A DNA stretch of 64,000 nucleotides from NCBI GenBank assembly GCA_033065855.1, contig JAVXUO010003001.1, positions 1,426,001-1,490,000 on the forward strand, given 5' to 3'. This DNA comes from Escallonia rubra. Its lineage: Eukaryota > Streptophyta > Magnoliopsida > Escalloniales > Escalloniaceae. The position numbers and the translations under genes are program-made. Below are positions 2,267-62,588 of this stretch, in pieces (the stretch's first letter is position 1; the number at the start of each line of letters is the position of its first letter). Below the pieces are notes generated by a model. It saw only the letters and a program-made list of their open reading frames with translations. It searched no databases and was not told the origin of the DNA.

Positions 2267-2675
2267 ACGACAACTAGCTAGTTTGGACCCAAGCTGCAGC
2301 AGCAAATACCTGCTGGCCTTTGTTTGAGTTAATCTGTGTAGGTTCAGTGGAGAGTTTGATACCATTTTTTGCTAATGAGAATATTTGGAAGCTAGATATA
2401 GGAGGAGAACAAATTGTCGTGCCTTTAACCAGGTTGCTTCCATACTAGTGCATTTTTCATAAATGATAGCGTCTAGTGAATTTGTGGTACCCATGATGGT
2501 AATAACTAGTGATCTTGTTGATATCAAGGGAGAAAAAAGAGGAACGAACTCGAGTTGTACAAGAACCCGGTTAGAAGATAAAAGGAAAAATTCTAGCAGC
2601 TACATAAAAGTGGTACACGTACTATAGCAAAATCAATAACAGCGATGAGTCGGAGCTAACTTTTATTTGCACCAT

Positions 2676-4837
2676 TTAGAGTATCTTGTCCATGATGTGC
2701 CGCACCCTACACATGGCCACAAGAGGCTCAAGTTTTGGCATGCTGAGACCTGTACCTTCAGTCAAGTCTATTTGGTTTTCACTCATCGTCTCCCACTCAA
2801 AGCACTGAATTAATGACGCTAAGGCCAAGCCCAACACCCTTTGAGCCAGACTTGTCCCTGGACATGACCTCCTTCCCATACCAAACGGCATTAGCCTGTT
2901 CCCCTCTATTTCTCCAGCTTCAAATCTCTCAGGCTTGAAGCTTGTAGGGTCTTCCCATACCCGAGGGTCCCTGTGAATGGCCCATGCGTTGACCAATAAG
3001 ATTGTGCCACGTGGAACATCGTATCCCCCGACTGAGCAATCAGCGGATGACTCATGCGGTAATAGCAAGGGTGTTGCTGGAAATAATCTAAAGGTTTCTA
3101 AAATGATGCAATGGAGGTACTGTAGTTTGGCTAAATCTGATTCCTCGACAAGTCTCTCGTGACCAACATGATTATCTAATTCAGCTCTGGCCTTCTTCAA
3201 CACGTCAGGATGGTTGAGCAAAAGGGTCATCGCCCATTCTATCGTCACTGATGAAGTGTCCGTTCCAGCATTCAACATAACCTACACATGAGTGAAATTG
3301 GAAGAAAGTTAAAATACTAGGAATGCTGCATCCAACCCATTCTTCTTGTTCGTATCATCTTGTAGCACCAGAGCCTTTACTTATCAGATCAGCAGTAGTT
3401 TGACAGAATTTTTCGACAAACATGGTACAGATTGAGATAACTACTGATTGATTCTTAAATGGCTAATAATTGGGGGTGGGGAACCAGTATACATTTTTTC
3501 AACCTGACATCTATAGTTTGTTGGTGTTCTGAATTTCTGGATATAGTTCTAACAATTGATCACCATGGACATAACTTGTATCATGTTCAATCGATATAAG
3601 TAGTGCGCCAACCAACAAAATGGTAGGTCTTTGTGAGCCAGTGGCGAAACCACACAAACAATTTCTCCCACATCTTCGAACATGATGCCAATCCCTTGTT
3701 CGGTCGATGATACGTACGTTAGTATTAAATCTGGTAGAATGGCATGGCATGTGATGTAATTACTTGGCATTTTTATAGGTCAAGATAGAACAGGGTCTTT
3801 GTCCATCTGGCTTCTAAGAAGCCGGCTGCCGACGAACCAAAATATGGTCAAGACAAGAAACCAAATTCTCATTATCTACGTTTTTAGAATAGGCATTAGT
3901 GACCAGTAGTGCATCTTATTAAAGGTTTACTAGGGAGAGAGGGTACCAGTGCGAGGCCTTTGATGATTTGATCCGTATAGTACTCGGGCTGCGATTCTTG
4001 TAGAGAAAGCAAATGACTGATCATGTTGTTATTTTCACCATTACCACGCCGGTTTTCGTCAACAAGACCTTGCATAAATGCGTCCATCTTCTTGCCAAGC
4101 CTGACCAAATTCTTCTCCATACCCTTGTAATTAATCCAACGTAAAACCTGCAAGTAATCCCCGGGATTAGACGCAACACTTTGAGCGAATGCCTCCTTTA
4201 TGAGCTCCCGAAAGCGCTACGCCTCCTCATGATTGTCCACATCTTCGCCGAAATATCGCTTTCCTGCAACCATCCTCATTATGTTGTTAAAAGAGAGCTC
4301 AAAAAGCTTTGATTTCAGTTTCACCTTAACAAAGCCATGACGTGAAGTTTGAGCCAGCTCGTGAACTAAAATCCTGACCTCGTCCTCTCGAATGGACACA
4401 AACATGTTGAGCCGACTTGTGGAGAAGATCTCGAGGGCGCAGAGCCGACGGAGGTTGCGCCAGTGGTCACCGTAGGGAGCTCTGACCACTGTGGTCTGGT
4501 TGTAGCCGACGTGTTCGCTTATGGCAAAAAAAGGGCGGTTTGCGAGTACAATGTCGTTTTTGGTGAAGCATTCCTCAACAGCCTATGGCGACGACACTAC
4601 CACGACGAGGCGGGATCCGAACCTGAGAGAGATAATTTGCTGGCCGAGTTTTTGAGATAGCCTGTGTAGGGTCCGATGCAGAGGTTGTTTTAGGAGGTGG
4701 AGGTGACCTATTATGGGAAGCGCCGGTACTGGGCTTGGTGGCAGGTTTTGATTTTTCCTTCTTGCTTTAGGAGATAGCCTAAGGGCTAGAAATAAGAGGA
4801 AAACAGAGAGGGATGACCATAGCCATGTTATTTCCAT
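2676..4837 (-). pseudogene. P450 copy A (CYP81-type), two nonsense codons
   Basis: Exon 1 is 4837-3947 (891 nt) and exon 2 is 3281-2676 (606 nt), separated by a 665-nt GT-AG intron. Both exons have the same lengths as intact copies B1 and B2. Frame is kept throughout, but codon 85 (4585-4583) and codon 207 (4219-4217) are TAG where B1 and B2 encode Ser and Glu. Everything else expected is present: N-terminal anchor, LPPSP hinge, WRNLRR at 126-131, AGTDTS I-helix, ETFR, FKPERF and the heme loop [19 protein letters not shown]-like AGATATAG (seen on + strand) lies at 4885-4892. As read it cannot make a full P450. Lack of indels suggests recent inactivation, or sequencing errors at two sites. Confidence 0.85.
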
Positions 4838-43309: not shown

Positions 43310-45922
43310 TTATCTAGCATCATCAATCCTCAACTGGGAGAAAACGTCACTGGCACTCGTATAACTTGTAGCCAAACCATCATCAGTTGATAAGGGCATT
43401 TCATCCTTGTGAATTGGGATGCTATGGGACGGTAAACGTTGAAAAACAGGCAATGGCAACTCCCACGAAACATCAGTTGTGCTGTCCTCGTGGGGTTCTC
43501 TGAGCTTGATGGTTTGTTGAAGCTGCAGTGCGTATTCCAAGTCCCACACCACATCAAGCATAGTTGGCCTGTCAACACCATCCTCCTTTAGACACTTCTC
43601 CGCTGTTTCACCAAATTTTCTCAATGAGTTGGTACAAATATCATCCACGATGAAAGGATCCACAACTTTTTCAAGTTGTCCTTTCTTTTGCCAAACGATC
43701 CCCCAATCCGCTAAGTTCACTTGCTCCCGCGGAAGCACGTTATTAAGAGCCGGTCTAGCACAAAGCACTTCAAGAAGAACCACCCCAAAGGAGTAGACAT
43801 CAGATTTCTGAGTCAATTGTAGGCATCTAAAATATTCTGGATCAAGATAACCAAAGCTTCCTTTTACATCTGTGCTGACATGGCTTTGATCAGGAGGACC
43901 TGATCTTGAAAGACCGAAATCAGCGACTTTAGCTACATAATGTTCATCAAGTAGGATGTTTGTGGACTTGACATCACGGTGAATGATTCCCCCGTCTGAA
44001 CAAGTATGAAGGTAGTGAAGGCCTTTGGCTGCACCAATGCAAATTTCAAGCCTCCGATTCCAAGACAATTCAGGTTTTGAAGATGATCCTTTAGAACCTC
44101 CCTTCCAACTGTATAGATGTTCTCTCAAAGTCCCCTTCTCCATGTACTCATACACTAGTATCATCTCTGACCTCTCATCACAGTAACCAATCAAAGAAAC
44201 AAGATGACGGTGGCGGATTTTTGATAGGATAATTATCTCTGTTTGAAACTCCGCGAGGCCCTGACCATGTCCCGGCTCACTTCGTTTAACAGCCACTTTC
44301 ACTCCACTTGGGAGGGTTCCTTTGTAGACTTTCCCAAAGCCACCCTCACCAATCATCAATTTGGCATCGAAATCATTTGTTGCATAAACAATTTCAGCAA
44401 AAGGTACCTTCAGCCCAAGATTCAAATTGGCATAGGATGACGCATTTGTATTTCTTTCAGTAATCCCACTATAGGGACTCCCATCATTTGAAGGCACTAA
44501 AGGCCAATCCAATGTTGCAACAGACTTCGTTTTTTTGTATCTCAAACGAATCAAGAACGCCATCAACACAACAAAAACAAAAGCTACACCTCCAACAACA
44601 GAACCAATTATTATAGGCACCTCTTTCTTCTTTCGCTCGCGTTTTTCTGGACCTGTACTCAAATTCGTCATTAACTCCATAATCTCCAGCCCATTCAGAA
44701 AAGCTGTTTGACTCACTGAATCCTCACGAGGGCCAATACTGACGTTCATAACACCAGAATTGTCAGTATCCACCACAAAATCATAGTAAAAAGGAGCTCC
44801 CTGTTGAGGATAATAACCCCTTGGATCAATCAGCAAGCCGAATTCACTATAGATATACAAATTGAACTTCAGATCTTCAAGTGCAGGACCAATAACGAGG
44901 TGAGTGGCATTTTTACTCACATTGAAACGCCAAGTCACGTTGAAGAAGTTATTCACCCTAGCACTATCTATATTCAACTGTTTGGCTGTCTGGTAAACAG
45001 GATCCGGGGCGAAATACTCTGTTGCCCCTCCATCCTGGTATTTAGGCTTAGTTCCATAAAATTCACTATTCTTTGCTGCATCCCTAAGATATAAATACTC
45101 ATCATCAGGCACCCAATTCCTCCACAGCGTATCATTATCCTGCGTGAGTTTCACACCGCCAACATTAATCCTATATATCGTACGTAAAGCATGGGATTTC
45201 AAATCGTTGTAGTCACTTTTCCTTCCTGAAGGACTAACACGAGTTGCAGAATCTGGAACAAATCCATCAGGAGCAAGAAATACTTCTACTGCATTAACAA
45301 ATGCAAAGGTTCTTGTTTCTTGAGAAGGCGTGAAGTAAATTCTGAACTTCCCAACACTGATGGAAATTAAAAACTCTTGTATCACAGGTGAATTGTCACT
45401 TTTTTGGGGTGTGAAATTCGATAACAGAGAGAACCCAGATGCCGAAACGTTGAACTGGGCATCAGAAAGATTGTTTGAGGACGAAAATAGATAGAAGTGG
45501 AGGCGTACCAGGTAAGTGCCGTTTTCGGCTATTTGGAGCTCATACCAAGAAGGTCGTGTGAAGATTCGTGCAGTTTGGTAGAGAGGTGACGTGGATGACG
45601 ACAGGTTGGTGTCTTTGACAGGATTGCTTTGTCCGGTGAGGGAAAAAGAACGGGAGCTTATGTCGCCGATGAAATTCCGGCCATTGATGCTAGTGCTGGA
45701 GGCGGACCCGCAGTTGATGAAGTATTGTTCAGGTGGAGTGTAGGCTGATGAGAGAAAGGGAAGAGAGGAGAGTCGGAAGAGCAAGATAAGGAGATAGAGA
45801 GTAAGAAGAATCTTGGAGGAGTGAAGCTCATCCATGGAATTTGATGGGGTGATCTTGTTGTGGAGGGAACGAAATATACATGACTTCATTGTGGACTGCA
45901 ATAATGATGAAGTTGACTTCAT
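43310..45922 (-). CDS. CrRLK1L-family malectin-like receptor kinase
   Basis: A single-exon frame of 870 codons. Order: a hydrophobic signal peptide (about 37-60), an extracellular malectin-like region starting YFINCG (about 66-420) with several N-x-S/T sites, one membrane segment (about 436-460), a basic stop-transfer, and a Ser/Thr kinase domain. Kinase landmarks: glycine loop GEGGFGKV 525-532, VAVK Lys546, HRD 648-650, Asn655, DFG 668-670, and DPE 694-696 in place of APE. All catalytic residues are present. CrRLK1L receptors (FERONIA, HERKULES, THESEUS) sit in the plasma membrane and sense cell-wall state or RALF peptides. This one most resembles the At5g24010-type branch, from memory. The first 29 codons look atypical. 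The Met at 45835-45833 (MDELHSS), followed directly by the signal peptide, is probably the true start, giving about 841 residues. Lack of introns is normal for this family. Confidence 0.93.
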   Translation of the reverse strand: MKSTSSLLQSTMKSCIFRSLHNKITPSNSMDELHSSKILLTLYLLILLFRLSSLPFLSSAYTPPEQYFINCGSASSTSINGRNFIGDISSRSFSLTGQSNPVKDTNLSSSTSPLYQTARIFTRPSWYELQIAENGTYLVRLHFYLFSSSNNLSDAQFNVSASGFSLLSNFTPQKSDNSPVIQEFLISISVGKFRIYFTPSQETRTFAFVNAVEVFLAPDGFVPDSATRVSPSGRKSDYNDLKSHALRTIYRINVGGVKLTQDNDTLWRNWVPDDEYLYLRDAAKNSEFYGTKPKYQDGGATEYFAPDPVYQTAKQLNIDSARVNNFFNVTWRFNVSKNATHLVIGPALEDLKFNLYIYSEFGLLIDPRGYYPQQGAPFYYDFVVDTDNSGVMNVSIGPREDSVSQTAFLNGLEIMELMTNLSTGPEKRERKKKEVPIIIGSVVGGVAFVFVVLMAFLIRLRYKKTKSVATLDWPLVPSNDGSPYSGITERNTNASSYANLNLGLKVPFAEIVYATNDFDAKLMIGEGGFGKVYKGTLPSGVKVAVKRSEPGHGQGLAEFQTEIIILSKIRHRHLVSLIGYCDERSEMILVYEYMEKGTLREHLYSWKGGSKGSSSKPELSWNRRLEICIGAAKGLHYLHTCSDGGIIHRDVKSTNILLDEHYVAKVADFGLSRSGPPDQSHVSTDVKGSFGYLDPEYFRCLQLTQKSDVYSFGVVLLEVLCARPALNNVLPREQVNLADWGIVWQKKGQLEKVVDPFIVDDICTNSLRKFGETAEKCLKEDGVDRPTMLDVVWDLEYALQLQQTIKLREPHEDSTTDVSWELPLPVFQRLPSHSIPIHKDEMPLSTDDGLATSYTSASDVFSQLRIDDAR

Positions 45923-47425
45923 GTTGACTTGTGGATATCTGCAGTGACAATTTTTCTCATTGGGGAATAATTATTCCGCCAGTAATTGTTTTCATTTTAA
46001 AAAATTAGACTTTTAATACTTTCATTTTGCTAATTTTGTTTGTTAGCAGCATTTAAAGAAAAAATAAGTATTGATTCATTGTGTTGCACATGAGAGGAAC
46101 GACTGTTAAAATATTCTATCGAAAGCTTATACTTATACATCGAATAGTAATAACAAAGTTAATAGCAATATTAATAATGCTATTTTTACTTTTTTATGAG
46201 TATTTTTACTATTTTTAGTGACAATCGTTAGTCTTTAAGCAACAAATCCAATAGTAAAATATAAAATCGTATAAATAATCTCTGCCAACTAGTAATAATA
46301 ATAGAACCTATGTGTTAAAGTTTGTATTGATAAAACTCACAAAAATTAGTATATAAAGATATGGAATAAAATATAAAATAAAATATGAGAGAAAATTACT
46401 TTATCCATCCCACATAATTTGGTTAACTCTTTTTTTACGTAGATTAAGGATTTAAGTGATATATTGTGTGTTTCTCATTCTATCCTTAAGAGATGAGGGA
46501 AAAAAAGTAAGTCAAGAGAGAGAAAATAAATCAGTGAAGTGTTAAATGTTGAGAGAGAAATATATAAATAAGTGTAAAAAGGTGGGTCGGAAGAGAAAAC
46601 ATAAGTTGATTGAAGATTAAACGTGGACAGAGAAATATAATAATTTTTTTATAAAAAGGATAAATATGTAAAAATACCTAAAGAATTTTTTTAATTTTGG
46701 AAAATGAGTAATTTTTATGTAACTGTCCAAAAAAATAATATGATCAATTTATGTGGTACGGAGAGAGCATATATGTGTGTGTGTGTGTTAAATTGTAAAA
46801 AAGTATTAGACTTGTCTAAAATATAAGATATTGTTAAGATTTAGATGAGAGGTATAAATATAAAACTATTAAGAGAAAGAGAGTTTTTGGCGTAATCTCG
46901 AGAATCAATTTTTGTGTGGGAGATGTCAAAGTGTAAGAGAGAAAATGGTGAAATTCATTTGATTAGTAGAATGATAAATGATATTACGATAGGCACGTCA
47001 AGTAGAAGAGAGAAAGTTTGCATTCTCTCAGTTTAAATACACAACTACCTTAATTATAGGAAGATAGCAACAATATCCATATAGTAACAATTAAAAGTCG
47101 CTAAATGTATCTAATGATTCAGTGACAATTCTTAACAGAACTTTTTAGCTTCATCAAATAAAAGCTATTAATCAATTGTCGCTAGACAGAAAGTTATAAC
47201 TAACTTTTTACAATTCCAAAAACAGCCAAAACTTTTCTCATTTTAAATTGATTCTAAAAGATTATTTAGAACCAAGCATTAAGAAAAAGGTGTTGTTGGG
47301 GGGTTAATAAAATTTGTGTTGCTATAATATCTTGATGGTTAACATTTTAATCAACTTTTGGCTACTAGAGACTCCTTAGCGTCAAATTACTACATCACAT
47401 GTTGTAAGAATGTCACCATAAATAT
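45923..47425. other. AT-rich upstream region of receptor kinase
   Basis: Presumed promoter and intergenic DNA, with a short GT run near 46774-46788. No coding sequence or transposon end is recognised. Confidence 0.4.
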
Positions 47426-49091: not shown

Positions 49092-50255
49092 TGTTGGTTC
49101 GATTTATGTGGTTTCAAAAAAATTCAAACTGAATCGACCGAACCCAATGTACGGTTTGGAAAAAAACATAAATCAAACCGATTGATTTTTAGATCGGTTT
49201 GAAAATAGACGGATTGGTTGGTTCGATTTTTACGATTCGATCGATTTCAACGGTTTAAATGCTCACCCCTAACTGTACTATCCTTACTTCATTGATACAA
49301 AGTAGTTAATTTAAGCTGGAGATTTTTATGTGATATTATTGCGGCCCAACAAATAACTCAAAATTAAAAGGTACAATGTCACCCGAGAGGGGGATTAGGA
49401 TCCCCTGTTGTAACTCATGGTTACAACAGGGGTGCTGTGATCCCAAATAAGAGAGGGGGAAGAGAGAGAGAGAGAGTAACCATGGTTTACATCCCCCTCT
49501 CTCTCTCTTCCCTCTCTCTCTCTCTTCCCCCTCTCTCCTTTGGGATCACACACTACGCCAAAACTGGCCTATAGTGTCGAAATTGCCTACGGTATAGAAG
49601 GAACCGTAGGTACAAGTTAGGTATGCCTACGGTTACGACTTGTACCGTGGCTATTCGTGCTGCTTCGGTTTGGAAGAGCAGTCACGACGGTGCTTACCGT
49701 GGGGGCAGAAGTGTGGCAACTCCCTCTCTCTCTCTCTCTTCCCCCCCGACAGACGCACGACTCTCTCTGTCTCTCTGTGACTTGTCTCTCAGTCTCTCAC
49801 CCACTACCAAACCGAAGACGGCAGACATCACCCCCGACAGCGACACGCTCACACTCCGACACGGCGGCCGGCAGGGGCTTTCACCTCCACTAGCCAACTC
49901 TCTCTGTTGAGGAGAGCTCAGATCTGGAACGAGTGGTCGGAGTGGAGCCATGGAAGGAGATGGAGATGGACCGGTGAAGAGGTCTTCGAGGTGAGGACTC
50001 CACCGGCCAAGAACCCACTGCCGGCGACGACGCGTCGACGACCGGTGACCCGTGACCGGTCAATTAATCAACTGCCTTCATCATTTTCAGATTTAGGTAC
50101 ACATTTCAGATTGTTAATTGATCACTTGCTTTCCCAATTGAGCTTTTTAGATTGTTAATTGAGGTCATTGAGCATTTCGGATAAACTAGAATTGTTGAAG
50201 AGAAATCACACACACACTTGTAGAGAGGGAGAGAGAGGTGTTTTCCGGTAGAAGA

Positions 50256-50545
50256 ATGTGGCGATCGTCGTTCGTGTTACTGAGACAGACCGCCGCGTCG
50301 GCGGCTAGGGCTACGCCGAGGTCATTTTCGGAAGTTCGGGCGTGTCTGGAGCTGAACGAGCTCTGTGGCTGCTCGTTCTGGACCAAACCGGTCGCGGCAT
50401 TCTCGACCGATTCGAGTTTCGACGGTGCCGGAATTGGAGGCGGAAAAGGCAGAGAATAAGGTGGTGGGGTGCGGGAGGAGGGGGGCGATACGATTTCGTT
50501 TGGGGAGGCGAGGAAGCTGATGAGGCTGGTGAACGTGGAGGATAA
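50256..50545 (+). pseudogene. Captured fragment of mitochondrial calcium uniporter (MCU) exon 1
   Basis: One frame reads MWRSSFVLLRQTAASAARAT (a presequence-like, Arg/Ala/Ser-rich start). After an in-frame TAA at 50457-50459 and a glycine-rich stretch it reads GDTISFGEARKLMRLVNVED. The ISFxEAxxLMRLVNVE motif is the conserved region near the N-terminal domain of plant MCU proteins, recognised from memory. The pore region (WDxxEP) is absent. Lying inside a CACTA element, it is best read as a captured and decayed first exon. Confidence 0.7.
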
Positions 50546-51167
50546 TCTAAAAGGGATGCCCACCGATCACCGCCACAACCAGGTTGCCTTCTTCGCCGCT
50601 TGCCAATCGTACCAATGTGAGTTGCAGTTGGTTTTGTGTCCTTTGACCGCTGGGAAAGGACTTGTGGCAGATGGAGGGGTCCCACACGCATTTGGGGGCG
50701 ACGGCTGTGTGTTCGTGTGTGCAGATTTATGTGTATATGTTCGTTTGTGCAGATACATGCCTGTGTGTAATTGTGTACGTTTGTGTGTGCGCAGATTGGT
50801 GGCGGTGGTGTTGTGGTAGTTGGTGGTTTTAGGATGTTGCGATGGTTGTGGATGGTGGTGTTGGGATGATACCGTGGTGCTGGTTGGTGGCTAATGATTG
50901 TAGTTGGCGAGGGAAAAGAAAGAGAGGGGAGAGAGAGAGAAATGAAACCTAATGTTATGGGAATCTAACACAAAATATTCATATATTGAATATGGATGTT
51001 CACTTTGTAAAACACCGTGTTTTGACTGTAATTTACTCCAACTCAGAGAGAGAGAGTTTAGCTATATTATCTATATTCAATATACTAATGCATGCTAATT
51101 TAGTGGAACAATACCAATGCATGCTAATTTAATAGAGAGGTTATTTGGAGTTGTAATTGGTGCACAG

Positions 51168-52278
51168 ATACTGATTGTCGACTACAAATTGACCTTTCCA
51201 AGTGGCATGGCGACTGCTGTTCTTATCAATGGGTTTCATGCCCGGGGAGACGTGTAATATCCCACATCGGTTGTGGGAGAGTTTGCGATTTGCCTTATAA
51301 GACCCTGCCTATGAACTCATAAGTACCTACTTGGTTAGCCCTTTTGAGGGAGGCAATGCTCTGTGGTGGGGCCGTGGACCGGGTCGTTACAGATAGTATC
51401 AGAGCCGACTCTCGAAAGCTCGGGCTGAGCTGTCCAGTCGGGTTGCCAATGGTTGGGGCAACGAAGGGTGAGCCGGGTATATCTCACATTGGCTAGAGAG
51501 GAAGATTCTGGGCTATGTGTGATCGAGCCTTAGCGAGGACGCTAAGAAATAAGGTGGGGAGATTGTAATATCCCATATCGGTTGTGGGAGAGTTTGCGAT
51601 TGGCCTTATAAGACCCTGCCTATGAACTCATAAGTACCTACTTGGTTAGCCCTTTTGAGGGAGGCAATGCTCTGTGGTGGGGCCGTGGACCGAGTCGTTA
51701 CAAGACGAGATGGCCAAGTACTTACTGAAACTTCCACTTGACCCCTCTTATCAATTGCCTGCATATGTAAATAATGCAGATCTTGAAGCACATCTCGATC
51801 CTTCATGTTACTTGCAGGAAACAAGTAGCCGGGTTTATGAGGTTCTTCTCATTTAGTTTCTTGTGGGGTTTTTTTCAATGGTTCTACACTGGGACAGAAG
51901 GATGTGGGTTCGCACAGTTCCCCACTTTTGGGTTGCAAGCTTGGAAGCAAACGTATGTCTTGCTCCATATTCATGTGTCTGTGAGCTCCTCTGCAGTTCG
52001 GAGGCAATAGCATTGCTGAATTTTGCTATTAATGGAGTATACCTTCTTAGTAACAAATGAATGTTAATGGCTTTTCCTCTGAGGACTGCAGATGATCTGC
52101 TTCAGCATATATAGACGCATGCAATTTCCTGATTTACGAGCCTAGCTTGGGAATGTCTGAGTGACGGTTTCAAGCTGATTTGGGTTTTTGTGTAGATTCT
52201 ACTTTGACTTTAGCTTGACTTATGTGGGAACGGGAATGATCTGCCCTCACATTGTGAACTTGTGTTTATTGTTTGCAG
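51168..52278 (+). pseudogene. Captured fragment of a YSL/OPT metal-nicotianamine transporter
   Basis: Three exons with introns are recognisable. Exon a (51168-51252, continuing 51708-51717 after the TRIM) reads [20 protein letters not shown] then HARGDEMAK. Exon b (51818-51953) reads [20 protein letters not shown] then [20 protein letters not shown]. Exon c (52196 to about 52278) reads [20 protein letters not shown] then NLCL. Splice sites are canonical and join in frame. The motifs are those of plant yellow-stripe-like oligopeptide transporters, here a central membrane portion only (about 1/6 of the protein). Introns are retained, so capture was from genomic DNA. Exon a is interrupted by the TRIM element. 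Confidence 0.85.
51253..51702 (+). mobile_element. TRIM retrotransposon, 450 bp, 139-bp LTRs
   Basis: LTRs 51253-51391 and 51564-51702 are equal in length (139 bp) and nearly identical. They begin TGTAATATCCCACATCGG (ATATCGG in the second) and end TCGTTACA. Just inside is a primer-binding-like site for initiator tRNA-Met (TAGTATCAGAGCC, 51396-51408), and a purine tract (AAGGTGGGGAGA) precedes the second LTR. The perfect 5-bp duplication AGACG (51248-51252 and 51703-51707) flanks it. It has no coding capacity, as is normal for terminal-repeat retrotransposons in miniature. Confidence 0.95.
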
Positions 52279-52808
52279 TACTTCAACTGTTGTGATAATT
52301 TGAGGATTACTTTCTTTTGTTTCTATATCTTTTGAGTTGGATTCTGTGTGTTTGCATTTAAGTGCTTTAAAGATAATGTACCACTATGGTTAGATCTCTT
52401 AATACTGAAGCTGGTGCTTGGCAGGGTACAGTGGTAGCATGGAAATGATTTTCGAAATATTTTTTTTGATAAATAAGGAGCTATGCCTACGGTAGTACCG
52501 TAGGCATAGGTTGGGAATAAAAATAAGAATACAGCTATACCTACAGTAGTACCGTAGGCATAGCTGGGAATAAAAATAAGAATACAGCTACGGTATAACC
52601 GTAGGCATAACCTTCAACCCCGTAGGCATAGATCTAGGGCATCGCCACTTCTGGCTACGGTATAATACCGTAGGGATAGGCTATGCCTACGGGACATGGC
52701 ACCTATACCTACGGTACTGTACCGTAGGCATAGGCTGGTTTTCTTGTAGTGACAGCACCCCTGCTATAACCATGGGTTACAGCAGGGGATCCTGATCCCC
52801 GAGAGGGG

Positions 52809-57179: not shown

Positions 57180-58916
57180 TTGATTATGGCTCTCTGTGAG
57201 AAATGGTTAGTGCCGAGAAATAACTCCGACCATCCCCTCTCCTCCCCTTCCCCTTCCCCTCTGGTCGGCGAAGAATCTCAGCCTGCTAACCCCTCGAGTG
57301 TTTCTCCTCATCTCGTCCCACCAAGACCAGATCCACCCCCTGCTCCTTGCTTAACCGGAAAATTCTAGAGTTCTCCTGTGGACGGAGAGGAACCTAAAAT
57401 GCTTGAGCAAGAAATAGAAACAGAGCATGCATTAAACTCTAAGTACATGTAAAGCTCTGCCAACACCACCCCGGATGTCAACCCATCATGGAATAATGAT
57501 GGAGAGAGAAATTTGAAGAAAAGTAAGAAGGCTCACCAAACCCAAACTACATATGTGAATTTGAGCCAAAAGAAGAGAGATGAAGACATGACAGAGGCAG
57601 AAGTCATTCAAACCAAGAATAATACTGAGAATCTCTTGGAAGGACCTGCAAACCCAGAATTTGTTTCCATGATGGAAGACTCCAACCCCCAGGAAAAGGA
57701 TGGGAATATGGTCCCATCCTTGCCCCCACCACTACCTAGTGTCGACTCCACAACTATTAAATCCTACAGAGACACGGTCTATAAAAGTCAGGAGGACAAA
57801 GCTGTGTACTTCATTGATGGAATGGAAGACCTTCAATTCGAAACAGATATATGAAACACAAACTCCGGCGAGGGAATCATACCAGAGATCACACTTCCAG
57901 ATACTCTTGTCCAATCTATCAGAGCACAATGGTAAGACTGCATTATCATCAAACTACTAGGAAAAGCCATCGGATATCGTGCTCTATCTACCAGACTAAA
58001 ATCGATTTGGGATTTGCAGGGAGATTTTAAAATGATTGATTTAGATGAGGGGTTTTTCTTAATTAAATTTGATTTCAAACAGGATGCGACGCATGCATTA
58101 AACGGAGGACCATGGATAATCCTCAACCACTATCTCACCGTTCACAAATGGGAACCCAACTTCAAACCTTCAGAGGCTGTAGAAACTTCAACATCGGTTT
58201 GGCTCCGGTTATCGGAATTACCAATTGAATATTACAGTGAAAGTGTGCTATGAAGAATTGCAGTCAAATTTGGAAGACCCATTAAGGTTGATTTCAATAC
58301 GGCTACATCCGCGAGGGGGAAATACGCACGTATCTATGTGGAAATCGATCTCTCAAAGCCTCTAACACCAGCATACATTCTAGCTGGAAAGGAATACAAG
58401 GTAGAATATGAATTCATACCTCAGATTTACTTTGAATGTGGCCGAGTGGGTCACCGAAAAGAGACATGTTCTCATCGGCCGGAAAACAAAATCTCGGAGC
58501 ACTCTTCCCAAAAAACATCTCACCTGATACAAGCCAACGGTAACCTGTTGCACAAGAACGGTAACATTGGAAATGACCAAAGCCTGGTGAAAGAGACAAC
58601 TGAGAAAATGATCATAAGTCAACAAAGACCAAACTATGGATCTTGGATGATGGTCAAAAGGAAGCCACAGAGGCCCAACACATTCACACCGAGGAGATTC
58701 ACAGACAACCCCCTGAGTGGCCCAAAGAAAAACTCGGAAAACCAAAGCCAGAAGCCCATTACCAATTATAACCGTTTTGGGGCCCTGATATATGAAGATA
58801 ACAACCATGGCCCTATAGAATTGAGCCCAAACGGGAACCCTCAAGATGATGGACAAGAAACCATAAGACCGTCACAGACTATCTTAAAAGGACCAACAAG
58901 CCCAGTCCAGTGCTGA
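57180..58916 (+). pseudogene. LINE ORF1 (gag-like nucleic-acid-binding protein)
   Basis: One frame runs throughout but is cut by in-frame stops at about 57366, 57852, 57942 and 58251. The TGA at 58251 lies where CGA (Arg) is likely, a CpG-decay pattern. The N-terminus is Pro/Ser-rich. The DUF4283-like core (LLGKAIGYRA, RLKSIWDLQGDFKMIDLDEG, FFLIKF, LNGGPWIILN, VWLRLSELPIEYY) lies at about 57950-58250. It is followed by the knuckle ECGRVGHRKETC, where the expected first Cys is Tyr, so the CCHC zinc site is incomplete. The tail is Asn/Gln/Pro-rich. The protein would bind LINE RNA in an active element. Confidence 0.85.
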
Positions 58917-59456
58917 TTTTACAATTACAGCCCACAAGAAAACACCCACTTCACAGACCCTACTACCTAGCCCTCTTAATCTCTCTAGAACCACTGACCC
59001 AGCCATATCGAACCCTAAACAGAAACTATACACTTCTAGTTCTGAGCATGCCGCATGCTCCACTATCGGCATTACCCATTCCATCGTCCCACACCCCTTG
59101 TCCGATGGAGACCCTAAATAATTCATCTCCTCACCCTTCAACTTCAAACATGAGTAAACCACCAGATCCGCAACCCACTCCAAAACTCCATTCTGAAATT
59201 GATCGAAGTCAGAAAACTCAACTTCTTGGAGATGGAAATGAAAGAATAGAAAGGCGACAATCTGATCATGCTCTACGAAACAATAATCGAAGAGTTCAGA
59301 CTGATACTGAGACCAGATCGATGGAAAGAAGCAGAAGTCCCGTCAGAAGTAAGAATGTCAACTGTGACACATCCAACGTTTGGACTGGAAAGGGCGAAGA
59401 CAGTTCTGAAAGGTAAGCTCCCCTGTTTTGATAAAGATATCCTTGACAAGCTCTCG

Positions 59457-62400
59457 ATGACGGTTTTGATCTGGAACACCAGAGGTGCGGGAAACAGGAA
59501 TTTTAAAAATCATTTTTGGCAACTCCATCATGAGTTTAAACCAAATATTGTGGCTCTCATGGAAACTAAAGTCACCTTCCAGTCTATGGGTAACTTCTTT
59601 GAAAACCTCGGGCTAACGATGTCCAGTATAATAGACCCCAATGGTTGCGCTGGGGGTATTTGGGTTATCTGGAATCCGATCGAAGTCACTGTCATCCCCA
59701 TTCAAACGCATCAACATGTGGTTCATGTGGAGGTGAAGAAATTGTTTTTTGAAAATTGGTTCTTTTCGGCTGTGTACGGTAACCCACATCAAGCTAGCAG
59801 AGCTGAGTTATGGGAAAACCTCTCTAACTTTGTCGACGCCTTTCCGGTTCCTTGGGTGGTTGCGGGTGATTTCAACGACTACACTGGACCCTCGAAACGA
59901 CAAAGCTTCACACCTTTCACTGATAATCATCGATGCCAACTCTTCAACAACAATCTGAATAAGTGTGACCTTATGGACCTGGGAAGCCGTGGCCTTAGAT
60001 TGACGTGGGACAATGGAAGACAGGGCCTTGCCAATACCAAAGAACGCCTGGACCGTGTGGTTGCTAACAGTGATTGGAGGATCAGATTTCCTGAGGCACG
60101 ATCACTAACATTCCTCGTATGTACTCTGATCATTGCCATTTACTTTTGCATATTCATGGCATTGATAAACTTAAAACCCATAATAGACCTTTTAGGCTGG
60201 AAGCCATGTGGCTGGAGCACGAAAATTTCAAGAATGTTGTTGTTAAAGTCTGGACTAATAACACTCCCTTAAACCAGGCCAAAAATAACTTCCGTCCCCT
60301 TGCTAATAAATGGAATCATGAAACTTTTGGAAATATTTTTAGAAGGAAAAGATGTATTCTTGCCAGAATGAATGGTATTCAATCTGCCCTATCTGACCAT
60401 TCAGCTTCAACCTTGATAAGCTTGACAGAGAGCTGAAAAAAGAGTACAATAATATTCTTAAACAAGAAAAAAAAATTTGGTTCCAAAAGTCGAGAGCTCA
60501 AGCCATAACGCTTGGTGAAAGAAACACCAAATTCTTTCTTGTGACGACTCTTAAAAGAAGGAAAAGAAATAAAATTGAGGGCCTTAAGAACATCAATAAT
60601 ATCTGGACTGATGATCCTAATGAGCTGAAATCTATTATTATAGACAACTTCCAAAATCTCTTCTCTGATGATGAGCATGTTAGATACTACCCCAGTTGGG
60701 ATAATAATGTTTCGCTGGAACCAGAACTCCAGGTTTCCCTTATCAAAAATGTTGATCACATCGAAATTAAGAGAGCTACGTTTGATATTAAGGCTAATAA
60801 AGCCCCTGGGCCCGATGGGATATCCTCTCTTCTTTATCAAAAATTCTGGGATGTCATAGGTCCTTCCACATGTCAATATGTTAAAGATTGTTTCCAAAAT
60901 AAATATCTTCCTCCTGAGGATAAAAATGTGTTGGTTGCTCTCATACCCAAAATTGACCTCCCTGAAAGAATTACTCAATTCAGGCCCATCAGCCTTTTCA
61001 ATGTGAATTATAAAATTATTACCAAAATCATCGTTAACAGAATCTGCCCCTACCTTGAAAACCTTATAGGCCCTTTTCAGAGCAGCTTTCTTCATGGTAG
61101 ACACTCTGTCGACAACATTTGCATCACCCAGGAAATATTGCATTCTCTCAAAGCTAAGAAAGGCAAGCAAGGGGGTATGATTTGGAAAATAGACCTTGAG
61201 AAAGCCTACGATAAGATAAAATGGCAATTCATAAAACACACCCTCCATGAATTCAAGTTCCCTAAGAACCTCATTGATTTAATCATGGATTGTGTGATGG
61301 GTAACCACATGATTTTTCTCTGGAATAGTGAAACCACTAATCACATCAAACATGGTAGAGGGATTAGACAAGGAAAATGGATCCAAAATTTCCTTATGGA
61401 ATGACTGGTGGTGCGGTGATAAACCTTTGAATCAAGATGGGTTGAGAGGTAACACTAACATGAAAGTTTGTAGCATAATAGAAGGGAAAGAATGGAAAAT
61501 TAATGAAATTGAGAATGCTTTATCTACCACTGAGAAAACTGAGATAATGAACACCTCCTTAGCTAAACTTAGTGACATCCAAGACACCCCTTGTTGGGGA
61601 CCCTCAGGTAATGGTAAGTTTTATACTCAAGCTATTTTTGCCTTGATGTCCAGCTCCAACCCCCAGCTGCCCCACCCTATTAACAACAATTGGAGCAGAA
61701 TTTGGAAGATGCACATCCCCCAAAAATTAAAAGGTTTTGTTTGGACCATCCTCCATGATAGACTCCCTACCAACTCCCTTAGGAAGATTCGTGGCATAAC
61801 TGACATTAACCTTTGCCCCAGATGCCTTAACTATGAGGAAACCACCCTACATGTCATATGGAGTTGCAAGTATGCAATTGAAATCTGGGCTCCTCATCTT
61901 GATAACCATCAAACTCAACAACTTCAGAATCTTGATGTGGCTCAATGGTTTTGGAAATGGGTGAAAATGAAAGAACATCATATCCAATATTACCCCTGGG
62001 AAATTCTTTTCATAGCTACTATGTGGACTAACTGGAAATGCAAGAACAAAAAGGTGTTTGACAATAAACACACATCTATTGTGGAAGCACTGTACTTCAG
62101 CAAGAATTTGGCAAGGGATGTATCTATGGCTTTTCATCTAAATAATATAACACAAAACACAAGATTCCCAAACTAATCAAATGGTTTTTCCCAGATGCAG
62201 ATTTAATCAAAGTGAACACAGATGGAGCAGCTAAAGGCAATCCAGGGATGAGCGGTTATGGTGGAATAATCAGAGATGATCAAGGGAGATGGATGAAGGG
62301 CTTCTATGGAAACATTGGCCAAAATACAAGCTTAAATGCGGAAATATGGGGTATACACAGAGGCCTCATTACCATAAGAGAGAGAAAATGGCAGAGAACA

Positions 62401-62588
62401 ACGGTGGAAACGGACTCAACAGCTGCCTTACAGCTAATCATGAAACAAGACATTCAAGACCACCCCTCAGACCCATGGTGGAAGATTGCCGAAAAATCAT
62501 CACACAGTCGAGAAGCGCGCTAATGCACACCATGCGAGAAAGAAATCAATGCGCGAACAAACAGAACAATACGTTTGCATTCAGATAA
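59457..62588 (+). pseudogene. LINE ORF2 (endonuclease, truncated RT, RNase H)
   Basis: It begins MTVLIWNTRGAGN. Endonuclease landmarks: METK, VYGNPHQASR, VVAGDFND, ERLDRVVAN. The final SDH appears only in another frame after a frameshift near 60115. A further shift occurs near 60420. The reverse transcriptase then reads NKAPGPDGIS, ALIPKI, QFRPISL and IDLEKAYDK, up to GRGIRQG at about 61374. There it jumps directly to a later region (NGSKISLWNDWWCGDKPL), so the palm half with YADD and the thumb are deleted. zf-RVT follows (CPRCLNYEETTLHVIWSCKY). After another shift near 62170, the RNase H domain opens VNTDGAAKGNPGMSGYGGI. It cannot be active. Confidence 0.9.

Follow-up and report, generated by a model that had tools for sequence, protein, structure and literature searches.

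The window analyzed here, a stretch of 64,000 nucleotides of the Escallonia rubra genome (C3195:1426001-1490000), contains a 3201-bp CACTA transposon (49551..52751, forward strand) that carries pieces of two host genes, MCU, which encodes a mitochondrial calcium channel, and YSL, which encodes a metal transporter. We consider it probable that this element is a non-autonomous Pack-TYPE transposon that acquired pieces of host genes repeatedly, likely through the repair of breaks or gaps, and that its cargo is a passenger without protein function. The evidence comes from comparison of the window copy, W, with other copies of its family and with donor genes found in a search of the same plant genome (566 Mb in 3222 contigs); in what follows, C numbers denote contigs of this genome and L numbers the stretches fetched from it.

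Ends, target site and family of the element

The element starts with CACTA and ends with TAGTG, and it is flanked on both sides by a target-site duplication of ACA (49548..49550 and 52752..52754, both on the plus strand); the first-pass annotation of this DNA had described the tips, the duplication and the coordinates in the same way. The window holds 46 CACTA and 59 TAGTG words, which form 199 pairs lying 1-6 kb apart, and the only pair with matching 3-bp flanks is 49551/52751. The terminal inverted repeats (49551..49572, plus strand; 52730..52751, minus strand) pair at 17 of 22 positions. The subterminal words CCTACGG/CCGTAGG occur three times at 49586-49626 and nine times at 52486-52722, with eight occurrences in the rest of the window. 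Two regions are common to the family: a 5' core with the subterminal region (49551..50181, plus strand), which is also present in copies without MCU, and a 3' core whose subterminal repeats are of the TGCCTACGGTA type (52263..52751, plus strand), which is 98.4% identical to the 3' end of copy L027, the match running from 52259. The inverted tips, the 3-bp duplication and the subterminal repeats at both ends place the element in the CACTA (En/Spm) superfamily. No transposase domain was found in the open reading frames (ORFs) of the element that were scanned (sets of ten and four); this lack of a transposase of its own, the host gene DNA with donors elsewhere and the multiplication of that cargo by transposition make it a Pack-TYPE element, or Pack-CACTA.

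The target site provides further evidence for the insertion. The element lies in a foldback (inverted-repeat) element, with no strand assigned, whose left part (49390..49550) received the insertion and whose right arm follows at 52752..52800. Its arms at 49390-49438 and 52752-52800 show 90% inverted-repeat pairing, those at 49436-49474 and 49512-49550 show 95%, and they stop exactly at 49550 and 52752, the insertion point. Removal of the element together with one ACA regains a single long inverted repeat; this continuity of the foldback without the element is an independent demonstration that the element was inserted.

A 26-base pattern of the family 5' tip has 65 exact matches in the genome (41 forward and 24 reverse), compared with 0 and 0 for the reversed-pattern control. 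The 5' core was scored at 40 places, the best 40 of 559 candidates, with identities of up to 98%, and the 3' core (best 40 of 90 candidates) is present in 34 of the 41 rows compared. The MCU slice occurs at ten genome places, namely nine CACTA copies including the one in the window and the donor gene, and all nine places outside the window were fetched. Both tips and perfect 3-bp duplications (ACA, AGT, AAA, TAA, ACC, CGT, TTA and TAA) are found in eight of the nine MCU copies, and siblings without MCU exist. YSL is present in four of the nine: W, L022 (C2344), L025 (C1010) and L028 (C2258). The search for YSL copies covered the best 40 of 1861 candidates, a list crowded by a miniature inverted-repeat transposable element (MITE) in the donor intron, and further YSL copies are therefore possible. 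In eight copies at different places, the cargo is enclosed by paired tips and flanked by perfect duplications. This refutes segmental duplication or chance similarity as a substitute for transposon capture, and we discount that explanation almost entirely.

Host gene slices and the order of their capture

The MCU slice (50194..50541, plus strand) consists of the 5' untranslated region and the first part of exon 1, with an ATG at 50256 and an in-frame TAA at 50457-50459, and it is 94.6% identical to a gene in L026 (C2596). The second exon of this donor gene matches Pfam MCU with an E value of 3e-49, while the slice alone has no MCU match in Pfam or PDB; the identity of the slice therefore rests on the donor gene. 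Where the first-pass annotation had proposed an MCU-like first exon, the donor thus bears out the gene, but not the extent. Searches with the MCU slice in viral and genome contigs gave nothing informative, likewise those with the tip pattern in viral contigs, and a text search of the literature for the MCU peptide gave no match. The slice is at least 1.55 kb long in copy L027, and the in-frame stop codon is common to W and L025.

A 12-nt filler (50542..50553, plus strand), for which a long template was looked for and none found, separates MCU from the YSL slice. The latter is a single contiguous donor piece of about 1.25 kb, running from 50554 to about 52262 and later split by a 450-bp terminal-repeat retrotransposon in miniature (TRIM). 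Its first part (50554..51252, plus strand) is mostly intron with an exon from 51168 and is 96.9% identical to L003 3653-4339; its second part (51703..52262, plus strand) holds the remainder of that exon, an intron, an exon from about 51819, another intron and an exon from about 52196, and is 98.3% identical to L003 4336-4908, with OPT matches. Three colinear OPT matches were obtained for the slice in the window (E 1.2e-4 to 1.3e-5, each slightly under the Pfam cut-off), and it matches PDB 7wsr, an iron-phytosiderophore transporter, with an E value of 1.1e-19. The donor gene at C2072 (L003) is 97-98% identical, and its 469-codon last open frame matches OPT with an E value of 8.9e-90. These matches support the earlier reading of YSL exons with introns; however, the slice begins at 50554 and not at 51168, so that its first 600 nt are intron, and the TRIM within it had been overlooked. 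An ORF at 50554-50820 in W (beginning MPTDHRHNQ), considered as a possible third gene, was rejected because the donor alignment identifies it as YSL intron. The donors of both genes and the eight other MCU copies, three of them with YSL, confirm the earlier proposal of a DNA-level capture of two unrelated host genes with introns retained; in W both slices are in sense orientation. Neither condition named earlier as refuting this proposal was observed, since both homologues align and the tips are paired in eight of the nine MCU copies.

The TRIM (51253..51702, plus strand) lies within a YSL exon and has two 139-nt long terminal repeats (51253-51391 and 51564-51702) with TG..CA ends and three differences between them, a 5-bp duplication (AGACG) and no coding region, in only 450 nt overall. 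It presumably has a primer-binding motif as well. The TRIM is missing from the YSL donor and from L028, whose copy spans the site, which shows that it entered later. The donor intron contains the high-copy MITE mentioned above (L003 3261-3551), and L022 and L025 show the same site without it, which implies that the captured YSL allele lacked the MITE. A loss of 290 nt of YSL by L022 and L025 was rejected, as the stretch is the MITE and the site is uninserted in both copies. A stretch of about 75 nt of the YSL intron (window 50554-50630) recurs at 83-85% identity in three unrelated places (L030, L031 and L032), and it begins at the breakpoint of W and L028 or no more than 6 nt from it.

The MCU copies without YSL (L021, L023, L024, L027 and L029) all contain about 627 nt of RAD51, a slice that was tested in L027 (Pfam E 1.3e-16); its donor stretch is found at C1222 with 95-97% identity and matches RAD51 in PDB with an E value of 6.3e-29. 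The RAD51 slice sits within a slice that matches C3058 and is bordered by a 71-nt duplication of that slice, part of which we take to be similar to a long interspersed nuclear element (LINE). In four of these five copies, L027 being the exception, a slice of an aspartate aminotransferase gene lies within the MCU exon, where about 10 nt have been lost. Tested in L021, it matches PDB 5ax8 with an E value of 2.9e-12 and Pfam with 0.033, which is under the cut-off; a candidate donor at C2838 is 98% identical over 665 nt. A sibling without MCU at C2541 (L065) has ATG16 cargo (Pfam E 2.4e-10), and the ATG16 stretch also lies between 5' and 3' cores at C1066, C2652, C2322 and C1027. C378 and C3182 hold most of this stretch, are not among the core matches listed and may be the ATG16 donors. 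Given the RAD51, aspartate aminotransferase and ATG16 cargo, the metal-transport theme of MCU and YSL is probably a coincidence, a possibility that had already been raised in the first-pass annotation; functional coupling of the two as metal genes was rejected, since the sibling cargo has no metal connection.

The divergence of the slices from their donors gives the order of capture. MCU and YSL differ from their donors at 17/348 (4.9%) and 13/1241 (1.0%) positions in W (p 3e-5), at 17/497 (3.4%) and 11/1424 (0.8%) in L022 (p 9e-5), at 22/497 (4.4%) and 12/1427 (0.8%) in L025 (p 2e-6), and at 15/333 (4.5%) and 26/1535 (1.7%) in L028 (p 0.003). As MCU is further from its donor than YSL in all four copies that carry both, the captures were sequential, and that of MCU predates that of YSL. 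The YSL-bearing copies have the same type of 3' end as L027, while a second type is found in L021, L024 and L029, and L023 differs from both. Behind their YSL slices, L022 and L025 still have 37 nt of the C3058 slice (92% identical to L064), and they match L027 across its 3'-core junction at 98-99%, which indicates that YSL took the place of about 2.2 kb in an interior of the L027 type. L022 and L025 conflict at the 3' tip, and this conflict, together with the stop codon common to W and L025, points to exchange between copies. The first ~70 nt of W (49551-49620) contain eight sites that are common only to W and L024 among the eight copies compared, which suggests an exchange of tips. This stepwise history, the foldback target and the TRIM are additions to what had been annotated before.

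Mechanism of uptake and alternative explanations

We propose that the element was moved by a transposase presumably supplied in trans, and that a break or excision gap within it was repaired with ectopic host DNA as the template, with template switching, microhomology joining and filler. The earliest cargo would have been the MCU slice, the C3058 slice and, by parsimony, the RAD51 slice, so that the ancestor from which the YSL branch arose would already have carried RAD51. In one branch the YSL slice would then have replaced the interior stretch, after which different internal pieces would have been lost from each copy and ends exchanged between copies. The junctions, which were read by eye, have the following structure: in L022 and L025 there is 4-nt microhomology between MCU and YSL and 1 nt between YSL and the 3' side; L028 has a 2-nt filler, 8-nt microhomology and a filler with about 20 nt copied from nearby YSL; in W the left junction holds the 12-nt filler, and the right one shows 5-nt microhomology.

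For Pack-CACTA elements in Arabidopsis, the published model is the fusion of two neighboring CACTA insertions around donor DNA (PMC8903248, section 9). No family tip was found inside the nine copies, where relaxed matches (up to four mismatches) never begin with CACTA. In a relaxed scan of the donor loci, a single match, TTGTAGTG, keeps TAGTG intact at its end; it is situated 3.3 kb upstream of the MCU slice, at 1476-1497 of the L026 reverse complement, and may be due to chance. Stronger ground is provided by slices that lie within older cargo: the aspartate aminotransferase slice is placed in this way, at the cost of about 10 nt, as is the RAD51 slice with its 71-nt duplication, and an interior stretch has been replaced by YSL. 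From these and the junctions we infer break or gap repair inside the element with ectopic copying, and we regard fusion as a rather improbable route for the family; it is possible for the first capture of MCU, which adjoins the 5' core.

A number of observations weigh against the account of repeated uptake by repair in a mobile, non-autonomous element. The missing internal tips are weak evidence, because the fusion model permits deletion or mutation of the inner ends, as stated in excerpts of PMC8903248 and PMC13317346. The greater divergence of MCU persists when CpG sites are left out, but weakly so for L028 (p 0.041). L025 has the 3' tip alone, with no 5' end within the fetched stretch. Transposase_21 (PF02992) ORFs are abundant in the genome (150 of 2228 transposase candidates scored), but a by-eye comparison of these best 150 linked none to the family tips (CACTACRCCAAAACTG) as an autonomous partner, and among the matches listed, a transposase and a family end located on the same contig come no closer to each other than about 52 kb. 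Finally, the left and right YSL junctions differ among L022/L025, L028 and W, as they might if one YSL donor had been tapped repeatedly and each of these three had its own slice.

Such repeated tapping also fits the variable YSL sites, which are mostly private: in a 316-nt stretch common to the four copies, one of 13 sites separates all of them from the donor. In 3653-4648 of the donor stretch there are eight W-only, 11 L028-only and four shared differences, and in 2497-3041 four are common to three copies, seven are L028-only and one is L022-only; given that there is no outgroup, the shared ones may be changes in the donor. However, all four YSL copies have the L027 type of 3' end and no aspartate aminotransferase insert, and the MCU stop codon is common to W and L025. 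Their slices, which overlap and are colinear with the donor, all come after MCU and in its orientation, and the breakpoints of W and L028 are nearly equal (MCU 5122/5119, YSL 3653/3648). Several strikes on one gene are also unlikely a priori. The overlap and colinearity, the common type of 3' end and the near-equal breakpoints favor a single capture of YSL followed by deletions, and we judge repeated tapping of the donor to be unlikely. A more specific version, in which three sibling CACTA lineages independently captured the same YSL gene as a hot spot and the C2344 lineage made an in-frame fusion of a mitochondrial presequence with YSL, seems doubtful to us.

This fusion bears on the question of whether the chimera is active, either as a protein or through small RNAs acting on MCU or YSL; the first-pass annotation had suggested that chimeric transcripts or siRNAs may arise. 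In L022, the MCU presequence and N-terminal domain are in frame with a YSL exon over 262 open codons (element positions 741-1526). Many 24-nt words of W recur without mismatch in its donors (86/325 for MCU, 473/675 and 421/537 for the two YSL parts), and small RNA effects on the donors are possible in principle. Against activity, W and L025 have the stop codon in MCU, and the slices of W are in sense orientation and would form no hairpin. Nonsynonymous and synonymous changes per site in MCU are.037/.028 in L022,.046/.047 in L025,.061/.028 in W,.032/.033 in L021 and.036/.056 in L023, giving ratios of 1.32, 0.99, 2.17, 0.97 and 0.65, respectively, with few changes in each; the MCU slices of these five copies thus appear to evolve neutrally. 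The YSL exon piece differs from the donor by no nonsynonymous and one synonymous change in L022, and by none and two in L025, numbers too small to judge. We do not read the in-frame ORF of L022 as a gene, and we consider an active chimera very unlikely.

Comparison with known systems and significance

The following comparisons draw on excerpts of the cited papers. The Escallonia element resembles the Pack-CACTA and other Pack-TYPE elements of Arabidopsis, rice and maize in being non-autonomous, with CACTA tips, host gene DNA inside and spread by transposition; it differs in that the route published for those is the fusion of neighboring insertions, whereas its own internal junctions suggest filler-associated repair and the replacement of older cargo (PMC8903248). 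Tgm-Express1 of soybean is likewise a CACTA element with fragments of several unrelated genes (five), exons and introns being kept, but its site is an intron and chimeric transcripts arise from it, while the Escallonia element lies in a foldback repeat (PMC1947982). Breakpoint microhomology is shared with animal Pack-TIR elements, for which gap filling and template switching have been proposed; these are, however, animal families in which 56.9% are found no more than 15 kb away from the parental copy, in contrast to the Escallonia donors on other contigs (PMC8277862). CACTA elements of Chenopodium also combine host gene fragments with 3-bp duplications, but the examples carry a transposase-associated domain, and the AP2 fragment is 80 bp long (PMC8978399). 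The target duplication of annotated CACTA elements is given as 5 nt in PMC8903248 and as 3 bp in PMC8978399, and it is 3 bp in the Escallonia family; an excerpt of PMC11598098 was also among the comparison literature. A literature search turned up no account of this Escallonia CACTA family, which is not proof of absence, and searches for work on CACTA elements that acquire genes serially or by gap repair found nothing useful.

Elsewhere in the window, tandem cytochrome P450 genes occupy 2679-41000 on the minus strand, with eight ORFs matching Pfam p450; an apparent duplicated block is seen by eye, 8-18 kb being similar to 30.7-41 kb. An 885-codon ORF at 43316-45970, also on the minus strand, encodes a malectin-like receptor kinase, and at 57453-62520 lies a retroelement of the LINE type, which includes pieces of an endonuclease, a reverse transcriptase and an RNase H.

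The capture history of this Pack-CACTA family is unusually readable. Annotators of this genome should be warned that a piece resembling MCU or YSL can belong to the cargo of a transposon. How plant DNA transposons acquire pieces of host genes is still debated. This family keeps the intermediates, in the form of copies with older cargo, the replacement of one slice by another and exact junctions, and the donor places for MCU, YSL and RAD51, with candidates for the aspartate aminotransferase and C3058 slices, make the choice between repair and fusion testable.

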